DNA of 38,005 bases from Spirochaetaceae bacterium (GTDB lineage: Bacteria; Spirochaetota; Spirochaetia; SZUA-6; Bin103): NCBI GenBank assembly GCA_028821475.1, contig JAPPGB010000022.1:24148-62152 (forward strand). Reading direction: 5' to 3'. Below the pieces are notes generated by a model. The model saw nothing but the letters and a program-made list of their open reading frames with translations, made no database searches and was not told the DNA's origin. This document shows, in pieces, positions 2,260-10,298 of the stretch (the stretch's first letter is position 1; the number at the start of each line of letters is the position of its first letter). Both the position numbers and the translations under genes were made by a program.

Positions 2260-3156
2260 ATGCCAACAACAAGCGCCGGCACGTCAGCGCGCGCCGGTCT
2301 CAGCCCCGAACAGGTCCGCTCGTTTCAGCGCGACGGCTTCCTCAACGCCGGGCGCGTGCTCGACGACGGCGAACTCGACGAACTGTCCCACGAACTGGAC
2401 CGCATCATCGCCGTCGGTCCCGATGGCTTCGCCGACGGCGAGCCGCAGCCGGTGGTGTATCGCACGTTCGAGGTGGAGCGGCCGGTATGGCAGATCATCA
2501 ACATCTGGGAGGCGTCGCCGCTGTTCGAGCGGCTGATCCACCATCCCGTCATCGTGCGCGGCATCAGCCAGCTCACCGGCTTCGCCGACCTGCAGGTATG
2601 GCACGACCAGGTGCAGTACAAGCCGCCCCGCGCCGGCGGCGCCACCCGCTGGCACCAGGACGCGCCGCTGTGGCCGAGCATCGATCCCATGACCCCCGTG
2701 TCGGCCTGGATGCCGTTCGACGACGCCGACGTCGAGAACGGCTGCATGTGGATGGTGCCGGGATCGTACCGATGGGGGGACCGCCAGAACGAGTACCTCG
2801 CCTCACTCGACCACCTGCGCAACGTGGAGGACTTCGACCGGATAGGGGAGGGGTTCACTCCTCCGGAGGACGCCGAGATCCGCGACATCGTGGCGGTGCC
2901 GAGACCGGTCAGGCGCGGCGAGGTACACTTTCACCACTCCCTGACCTGGCACGGCTCGCCGGAGAACGACTCGCCGCGGCGGCGGCGGGCGCTGGCCATC
3001 CACTACATGACCGGCGAGGCGCGGTTCACCGGCCGCGATCACCTGATGCGGCCGTTCATCGACCTGGCCGTGGGCGAGCCGATGGCCAAGGCCGGCCCGC
3101 ACTTTCCGGTGGTGTGCCGGAACGGCACGCCGGTGGCCGCACCAGGGGCGTCGTAA
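2260..3156 (+). CDS. Phytanoyl-CoA dioxygenase (PhyH) family protein
   Basis: Predicted Fe(II)/2-oxoglutarate-dependent dioxygenase of 298 aa. The metal triad is visible: H132-x-D134 in RWHQDAPLW and distal H231 in LTWHGSPEN, followed by a run of Arg at 240-243 that would bind 2-oxoglutarate. The N-terminal LSPEQVRSFQRDGFL helix is typical of PhyH proteins. The start is ATG at 2260 with GAGGT just upstream; the frame stays open upstream for ~700 codons but that part is antisense to the binding-protein gene and is not coding. It diverges from the transporter gene at 145-2070 with a 189 bp gap. The family hydroxylates many small molecules, so the substrate is unknown. Confidence 0.88.
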   Translation: MPTTSAGTSARAGLSPEQVRSFQRDGFLNAGRVLDDGELDELSHELDRIIAVGPDGFADGEPQPVVYRTFEVERPVWQIINIWEASPLFERLIHHPVIVRGISQLTGFADLQVWHDQVQYKPPRAGGATRWHQDAPLWPSIDPMTPVSAWMPFDDADVENGCMWMVPGSYRWGDRQNEYLASLDHLRNVEDFDRIGEGFTPPEDAEIRDIVAVPRPVRRGEVHFHHSLTWHGSPENDSPRRRRALAIHYMTGEARFTGRDHLMRPFIDLAVGEPMAKAGPHFPVVCRNGTPVAAPGAS

Positions 3157-3267: not shown

Positions 3268-3873
3268 GTGGCGATAGCCGCTGTGCTCTTCAAATACTCG
3301 TTTCACGAACAGATAGCGAATGGTGCGATCACCGTCACGTACCGGGCCTGGAAGCGCGCCCGCGTGAAGGTGGGCAACCGGTACCGGCTCAACGCCGACG
3401 GCGTGGTGGCGGTGGACGACGTGCACGAAGCGCCCGTGGCGCAGATCACCGATGCCGCGGCGCACGCGTCCGGGTTCCCGTCGCGGGACGCCCTTCTGCG
3501 GCAGTTGTTCCCGGCGGGCCCCGGGCATCATCCCGATACCGTGTTCGAGATTCGGTTTCACTACCTGCCCGACCCGCGCACCCCCGTGGCTGACGTGTCC
3601 GCCGACGTCGCCGCGGACGTACTGCACGACTTGCTGGCCCGGCTGCGCAACATGGACGCCCGCAGCCGCGCCGGCCCGTGGATCGGCGCAACCCTGGCCC
3701 TGATCGACGCCCATCCCCGGGTGGCGGCCTCCCGGCTGGCGGCGCAGCTTGGGCGGGAGACTGCGCCCTTCAAGAGCAACATGCGCAAGTTGAAAGCCCT
3801 CGGCCTCACCATCAGTCACGACACCGGCTATACCCTGACCTCCCTCGGCTCCCGCGTTCTCCGGGCCTTATGA
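3268..3873 (+). CDS. ASCH-domain protein with C-terminal winged helix
   Basis: A 201 aa cytoplasmic protein. Residues ~5-105 resemble an ASCH (PUA-like) domain: LFKYSFHEQIANGAITVTYRAWKRARVKVGNRYRL matches the family pattern of a helix, G-x-x-T-x-T-x-R and a K-V-G-x-x-Y turn (segment shown only to position its motifs at residues 7-40). Residues ~135-200 look like a winged helix (RLAAQLGRETAPFKSNMRKL). ASCH proteins bind RNA or nucleotides; E. coli YqfB hydrolyses N4-acetylcytidine using Lys21, Thr24 and Glu74. Here the position matching that Lys is Ile (NGAITVT) while the Thr is kept, so YqfB-type catalysis is doubtful. The start is GTG at 3268, with an alternative GTG at 3283. The stop overlaps the next gene's ATG (ATGA), so the two are probably co-translated. 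Confidence 0.7.
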   Translation: MAIAAVLFKYSFHEQIANGAITVTYRAWKRARVKVGNRYRLNADGVVAVDDVHEAPVAQITDAAAHASGFPSRDALLRQLFPAGPGHHPDTVFEIRFHYLPDPRTPVADVSADVAADVLHDLLARLRNMDARSRAGPWIGATLALIDAHPRVAASRLAAQLGRETAPFKSNMRKLKALGLTISHDTGYTLTSLGSRVLRAL

Positions 3874-4889
3874 TCAAGCCGCTTTCGGATTTCCGGATCG
3901 CACCGTCGATCGAGGCGCTGCCGAAGGCGGACATCCACGTGCATGCCGAATCGGGCGCGCGTCTGGAGCAGGTGCTCGCGCAACGAACCGGGCGACGCGG
4001 CACCGACTGGCGGGTCAAGGCGCGCGACCTGATGCGCGACCTGCCGCCGGGCATGGCGCGCCTGGAGACGTGGATCCCCGACCTGCCGTATCCCCGTTCC
4101 TGGGTGGACGAGGTGGACGGTAGCAAGGACTATCTCGAAGCCCGTATCTGCCGCGTGCTGGTCGAAGCGGCGGAAGACGGCGCCCTCCTGGTCGAAGTGA
4201 TGTTCGGCGCCCGCACGATCCTGCGCGACGACTTCCTGGACAAGTTCGCGACGTCCCTGGCCGCCGTGCGTGACCGCTATCCGCGATTCCACGCGGTACC
4301 GCTGGTGGTAGCGCCGGTCACCGGGGAGTGGGCCGCCACCCTGTTGCCGCGCTGCCTCGCCGCTGCCCGGCGCGGTCTGGCCGGGCTGAACATCCTGCCC
4401 GTGCCTTATGATCAGCCGGCAGACTGGTCGGTGGTACACCGTTGGGCGAAGCGCGCGCTCGACGCGGGGTTGGGCATCGCCGCCCATGCGGGGGAATTCG
4501 GCCCGCTGCACCTGGCCGAGGCGCTCGATGTCCCCGGTCTGACACGCATCGGCCATGCCCTCGCCGCCACCACCGACTTACGCCTGCTCGACCGGATCGC
4601 CGCCCGCGGTGTGACCGTCGAGTGTGCGCTCTCCAGCAACGTGGTGCTCGGCGCAGTGGAGGGCTACGAGGACCACCCCATCCGCCGGTTCGTGGAACGT
4701 GGGGTTCCGGTGGCGATCTGTACCGACGATCCGGTTCGGGCCTGCACCACGATCGGGCGCGAGTACGCGATCGCCGCGAAGCTCGGATTCTCCGCCGCGG
4801 AGTTGCGTGGGTTCACCTGCGCGGCGGTCCGCGCATCGTTCTGCCGCCCGGCTGAGCGTGACCGGCTGCGGCGGCTGATCGCTTGCTGA
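3870..4889 (+). CDS. Adenosine deaminase family hydrolase
   Basis: Zn-dependent amidohydrolase of 339 aa, expected to deaminate adenosine or a related (possibly modified) purine nucleoside. All adenosine-deaminase landmarks can be read: KADIHVHAE (two metal His), AAHAGEFGP (metal His plus catalytic Glu), RIGHAL (catalytic His), ECALSSNVVLGAV, and CTDDPV (metal Asp pair). The ATG lies inside the TGA of the ASCH gene (ATGA overlap), and no better start exists; the long frame upstream is a shadow. The HVHAESGA sequence, where true adenosine deaminases have HVHLDGA, suggests an adenosine-deaminase-like branch with altered substrate. Coupling to an RNA/nucleotide-binding ASCH protein points to nucleoside salvage; this is inference. 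Confidence 0.85.
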   Translation: MIKPLSDFRIAPSIEALPKADIHVHAESGARLEQVLAQRTGRRGTDWRVKARDLMRDLPPGMARLETWIPDLPYPRSWVDEVDGSKDYLEARICRVLVEAAEDGALLVEVMFGARTILRDDFLDKFATSLAAVRDRYPRFHAVPLVVAPVTGEWAATLLPRCLAAARRGLAGLNILPVPYDQPADWSVVHRWAKRALDAGLGIAAHAGEFGPLHLAEALDVPGLTRIGHALAATTDLRLLDRIAARGVTVECALSSNVVLGAVEGYEDHPIRRFVERGVPVAICTDDPVRACTTIGREYAIAAKLGFSAAELRGFTCAAVRASFCRPAERDRLRRLIAC

Positions 4890-8825: not shown

Positions 8826-8942
8826 CGTTCCTCCCGGGATTCGCAATGTATCGAAACAGGCGGCTTGGTCCACGACGATCGGCGGAGCGTCGGACGAGGC
8901 GGGCTTATCAATGGCGCGGGGGCGCAGTACATTACGGTCGCG

Positions 8943-10298
<1,356 letters not shown>

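Follow-up and report, generated by a model that had tools for sequence, protein, structure and literature searches.

The two overlapping genes at 3268-4889 of the window (the whole stretch of 38,005 nucleotides analysed here, from a 5.7 Mb spirochaete genome, G000) are with moderate confidence explained as a small operon found in one spirochaete genus that combines two unrelated, separately evolving genes: ORF1, a putative nucleic-acid binder consisting of an ASCH domain and a winged helix-turn-helix (wHTH), and ORF2, a divergent putative deaminase of the adenosine deaminase (ADA) family. The architecture, the overlap, the residue losses, the selection on both genes and the distribution in the named samples were read directly from the data and suggest the following picture. 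ORF1 would be a dead ASCH (PUA-like) domain that keeps the pocket Arg and an invariant Trp, with a winged helix attached. Its most likely role is the binding of nucleic acid, as a regulator or as a binder of RNA or modified bases, and it is probably not an enzyme. ORF2 is most likely a metal-dependent deaminase with a nucleoside-like or other heterocyclic substrate, and its purine site would be built differently from that of adenosine deaminase. The two genes are likely to be co-transcribed.

Both open reading frames were confirmed on the forward strand, as was the ATGA by which the initial annotation had joined the two genes (Table 1). ATGA overlaps are frequent in bacteria and, taken alone, hint at co-transcription and nothing more. 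The relatives of ORF1 start at a codon that matches GTG 3283, and the true start is therefore probably this codon and not position 3268. Nei-Gojobori dN/dS values between the window and the corresponding locus of a sister species (L035) are 0.28 for ORF1 (195 codons) and 0.18 for ORF2 (338 codons), indicating purifying selection on both genes: neither resembles a chance reading frame.

Table 1. Coordinates of the two genes and their predicted features within the window
Feature	Position	Strand	Basis or remarks
ORF1, predicted ASCH-winged helix protein	3268-3873 as listed; 3283..3873 likely (196 aa)	+	start by comparison with relatives; fold
ORF1, predicted ASCH domain	3283..3570 (residues ~1-96)	+	Ile at the Lys21 position, Ser at the Glu74 position; Thr24 and Arg26 retained
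ORF1, predicted winged helix-turn-helix, CggR/MarR type	3616..3870 (residues ~112-196)	+	model comparison
ATGA start/stop overlap of ORF1 and ORF2	3870..3873	+	
ORF2, putative ADA-family hydrolase of a divergent group	3870..4889 (339 aa)	+	Pfam, tree, residues

The Pfam ASCH profile matches ORF1 barely above its curated cut-off (21.7 versus 21.2 bits) and finds 43 of the 81 aligned family members at E <= 0.1. A structure model built from the alignment of these 81 members is confident (mean pLDDT 94.7, pTM 0.68), and the structure ranked first by Foldseek is YqfB, with further matches to other ASCH structures. A second structure aligner gives Z 12.3 over 91 residues for residues 1-95 against YqfB, and Z ~11 for residues ~112-196 against the winged helices of both CggR and MarR. 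By its predicted structure, ORF1 is an ASCH/PUA-like fold followed by a winged-helix fold, and the architecture first proposed from the sequence is upheld by this model. With the MarR and CggR regulators ORF1 has the winged helix in common, but its other domain is ASCH. ASCH domains fused to an XRE HTH are described from (PIN)-GNAT-EVE operons and are predicted to bind modified DNA (PMC7641849). They resemble ORF1 in joining ASCH to a helix-turn-helix of DNA-binding type, whereas the helix-turn-helix of ORF1 is a C-terminal winged helix of the MarR/CggR type; EVE was absent from a general listing of the families among close neighbours of ASCH-wHTH loci.

YqfB is the N4-acetylcytidine amidohydrolase of Escherichia coli, with a proposed mechanism that involves Lys21, Thr24 and Glu74, and an Arg as oxyanion hole; the mutants Lys21Ala, Thr24Ala and Arg26Ala are described as inactive (PMC6972931). 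The signature of the ASCH superfamily is given as GxKxx[ETS]xR (PMC9599836). We judged the pocket of ORF1 by residue identity, with YqfB positions mapped onto the 81 family members by a weak profile alignment (E 0.083). In this weak mapping, the position of Lys21 is Ile (40), Val (39), Met (1) or Leu (1) and in no member Lys, the position of Glu74 is Ala (56), Ser (15), Gly (6) or Cys (4) and in no member Glu, and the position of Thr24 is Thr in 57/81. Arg26 is Arg in all 81 members, and two residues further Trp28 (numbered from 3268) is equally invariant (81/81). The family does not match the superfamily signature: Gly is present in 79/81 and Arg in 81/81 members, Lys in none. The change of the YqfB Lys to Ile, previously noted for ORF1, is thus confirmed, and the Glu is lost as well, in all 81 aligned members. 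ORF1 is similar to YqfB in its ASCH fold, in Arg26 and, for the window copy, in Thr24, but differs in both of the other catalytic positions and in the winged helix added throughout the family. With the triad incomplete in every aligned member, a YqfB-type amidohydrolase activity is unlikely as judged from the residues, and we infer a binding role instead.

The winged helix is better conserved (mean top-residue fraction 0.71) than the ASCH domain (0.54), but partly so by construction, because the patterns used to gather ASCH relatives fixed part of the winged helix. The recognition helix (PFKxDVRKLK) is invariant, which at first suggested a universal target; this reading was dropped, as the invariance is partly an artefact of the same search pattern. 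Outside the pattern, the wing residues Gly174, Leu175, Thr176, Gly182, Tyr183 and Gly189 (numbered from 3283) are invariant in 81/81 members. ORF1 itself was found in 3/61 genomes, its own included, and in the phylum sample in one of 392 genomes, its own. The wider family is larger: a scan of genome contigs gave 367 ASCH-wHTH relatives. We retained the best 80 (a set that may leave out the record of the window itself), and these belong, by record title, to Myxococcota, Actinomycetota, Chloroflexota, Planctomycetota and other phyla.

A same-strand gene within 60 bases of the ASCH gene was called at 18 (downstream) and 23 (upstream) of the 79 loci outside the genus; these operon counts are rough, as they come from a crude GC-frame caller that picked up the ASCH gene itself at 68 of 84 loci. 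No family recurs across lineages among these 41 close neighbours: only two DAHP synthase domains occur more than twice (5 loci), all within one Chloroflexota synteny block. The largest neighbour clusters, by our own reading of the names, are a protein kinase (8 loci) and an ABC ATPase, a luciferase-like and an SDR protein (7 loci); they were rejected as fixed partners, because they are common families at scattered distances and strands or come from related genomes, and some are antisense artefacts. Full-length ASCH-wHTH relatives are also present on plasmids of Embleya, Tsukamurella, Devosia and Agrobacterium, and tblastn of ORF2 on these four stretches (that of Embleya without annotation) found no relative. 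On the Tsukamurella plasmid (L030 4502-6621), a nucleoside hydrolase gene, a DUF664 gene and the ASCH-wHTH relative follow each other almost without gaps; the nucleoside hydrolase, two genes upstream, was seen once. On the Agrobacterium plasmid (L032 5314-7082), the relative comes after a TetR gene and overlaps with a GNAT acetyltransferase gene at the start of the latter. Phages had a single half-length ASCH match. In viral contigs no relative of ORF1 or ORF2 was found by searches from single proteins, whose reach is limited to close relatives. Judged by these sequence searches, the ASCH-wHTH family is widespread and mostly stand-alone in bacteria.

This wide distribution without a fixed partner, together with the invariant wing residues, is what would be expected if the whole family had a common cellular target, for instance RNA or modified DNA, and no operon-specific role, and the deaminase were an unrelated passenger; RNA or modified bases are what PUA/ASCH domains generally bind, and the prediction for the fusions with another HTH type points the same way. 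However, the two spirochaete copies differ at otherwise steady wing positions (SPRG to TSLG), so that the role may have changed there, and we regard this explanation as rather unlikely.

ORF2 matches Pfam A_deaminase (PF00962) at 2.6e-33 and has His23, His25, His206, Glu209, His229, Asp286 and Asp287. A quick tree of 61 ADA-family sequences places ORF2, its counterpart in the sister species and three Chloroflexota proteins in one group (SH-aLRT 99) on a stem of 1.99 changes per column; a sixth member, the fourth from Chloroflexota, was found later in one further genome, from a class of 47. The motifs HxH, HAGE, GH and D, which we take to be the metal and catalytic residues of PF00962, are present in all six: His 23, 25, 206 and 229, Glu209 and Asp286 are kept in 6/6, and Asp287 is Asn in 3/6. 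In contrast, the motif [AG]GxE, which we assume from adenosine deaminase structures to belong to the purine site, is found in 0/6 group members but in 54/56 of the other sampled ADA-family sequences, and one of the two exceptions has the near form YGDE. ORF2 carries PVPYD at the expected position, and the group has a PPGMxRL stretch in common. On these sequence features ORF2 is not a plain ADA, which supports the initial annotation on this point. The sequence HVHAESG in place of HVHLDG, to which it had drawn attention, is indeed present but has no special meaning: Glu for Asp after HxH is frequent in ADA-family proteins (HLHLEG, HLHIEA). The predicted model of ORF2 is poor (pLDDT 54.3). A Paraclostridium sordellii plasmid (L034 3947-4885) encodes another ADA-family protein, small, very divergent and annotated as hypothetical, in which HNHGGLG replaces HxHLDG. 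Its long branch joins the group with weak support (38), and it was not counted as a member.

ORF2 is the only PF00962 match found in its genome, and the same is true for its counterpart in the sister species. Together with the complete set of metal and catalytic residues, this would fit an ordinary adenosine deaminase of the organism with drifted motifs. This possibility is improbable too: the stem is long, [AG]GxE is missing throughout the group, all three Chloroflexota genomes tested carry a further PF00962 member besides the group member, and ORF2 stays below the cut-offs of the NCBIfam ADA equivalogs (120.7 versus 426 bits; TIGR01430, 111.4 versus 216.6).

Some ADA-family match is present in 229/297 genomes of the class sample; among the matches listed by E-value, the best after those of the window's own genome and the sister species have ~39% identity, over part of the protein. 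Members of the deaminase group (E 1e-83 or better, rounded) occur in 3/201 Chloroflexota genomes, while 26/201 have a match at 1e-20. The best match in 240 genomes of the class of an alphaproteobacterium reaches only 2.7e-27 and covers the C-terminal half, and no match reaching 1e-24 was found in 296 Actinomycetota genomes, in a search without positive control. Three of 146 Myxococcota match the profile at 1e-40, and the tree places them with other ADA-family sequences. On plasmids, matches spanning most of ORF2 reach at best 24% identity, so that a close relative is missing there, and a Chloroflexota group member has none at 1e-20. When 30 of the 80 genomes with ASCH loci were searched whole, 23 had an ADA-family match, and apart from that of the sister species no ORF2 match exceeded 33% over most of the protein. 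Thresholds differed between the genome searches (1e-3, 1e-18, 1e-20, 1e-24, 1e-40, 1e-60) and most genome sets were samples; the absence of ORF1 or ORF2 relatives elsewhere is thus not proven.

Is the pair conserved? The sister species (G002) has both genes (identities of 70% for ORF1 and 81% for ORF2), with a 1-base gap instead of the ATGA overlap and with a GTG start. The flanks are syntenic between the two species, and insertions of ~3.4 kb upstream and ~0.6 kb downstream part the pair from its other neighbours in the sister. That the pair nevertheless stays tight counts against two unrelated genes and would fit a linked function. However, as the neighbourhood is syntenic within the genus, the adjacency in the sister is not independent evidence. 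G001, the third genome in the genus and 81% complete, lacks an ORF1 match; its single PF00962 match is of the ordinary kind and carries LGGAE. In G003, a genome of the same family, an ORF1 relative (43%) stands without an adjoining deaminase, and there is no PF00962 match at all. Outside the genus, we found no adjacency of the two genes: tblastn of ORF2 on the best 80 of the 367 ASCH loci found an adjoining deaminase in one, the locus of the sister species, and none of the stretches flanking the four Chloroflexota relatives of ORF2 has an ASCH gene (one contig ends at the gene). Of the outcomes named at the outset as refuting, a pair that is not conserved is what these samples show outside one genus. 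The gene neighbourhoods compared do not support a functional coupling of ASCH and deaminase beyond this genus, in which the two genes probably came together recently. A search of the open-access literature found no paper joining 'ASCH domain' with 'adenosine deaminase' and none on the deaminase group.

These data also bear on a dedicated sensor-enzyme pair, in which the ASCH pocket would bind the substrate or product of the deaminase, a modified nucleoside, and the winged helix would repress or activate the operon. The ATGA overlap, the near-contact kept in the sister species despite the insertions, and the invariant Arg26 and Trp28 are compatible with such a pair, as is the ASCH fold itself, which forms a nucleoside pocket in YqfB (structure 9kyh is, by its title, a complex with ac4C). 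The ASCH family, however, is without this deaminase at 79/80 loci, the deaminase group is without ASCH in all four Chloroflexota stretches and the same-family genome has the ASCH gene alone, making a dedicated pair distinctly unlikely.

Just upstream of the pair (window 2308-3156) lies a gene for a PhyH dioxygenase, and PHYHD1-type dioxygenases are described to demethylate 2'-O-methyl nucleosides (PMC12709175). A modified-nucleoside cluster of this gene and the pair was considered and rejected as evidence: the genome has 51 PhyH-type matches, in the sister species ~3.5 kb separate the PhyH gene from the pair, and among solved structures RESC14 and SnoK match best, PHYHD1 only in third place. 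The 51 PhyH-type matches amount to a large expansion; the sister species likewise has 51, the same-family genome 25 and G001 15. Some 4 kb beyond the pair on the downstream side (window 8940-10298) is a gene for a radical SAM / UPF0004 / TRAM protein, with the architecture of a MiaB-type methylthiotransferase.

The boldest combination, a deaminase group whose substrate is a modified or non-adenosine heterocycle used by no known ADA, with a dead ASCH protein recruited in this genus as its ligand-sensing winged-helix regulator, is very improbable; if true, an enzyme fold would have become a nucleoside sensor that controls a deaminase. With the operon preferably read as two unrelated genes, it is ordinary as a pair and mildly interesting as two uncharacterised families. 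The ASCH-winged helix family is present in several phyla, matched no dedicated Pfam or NCBIfam model in our scans, and has lost the YqfB triad in every aligned member; the ADA-family group has an apparently rebuilt purine site. The pairing itself explains little, and it is the families that matter, since either might lead to a new ligand, target or substrate.
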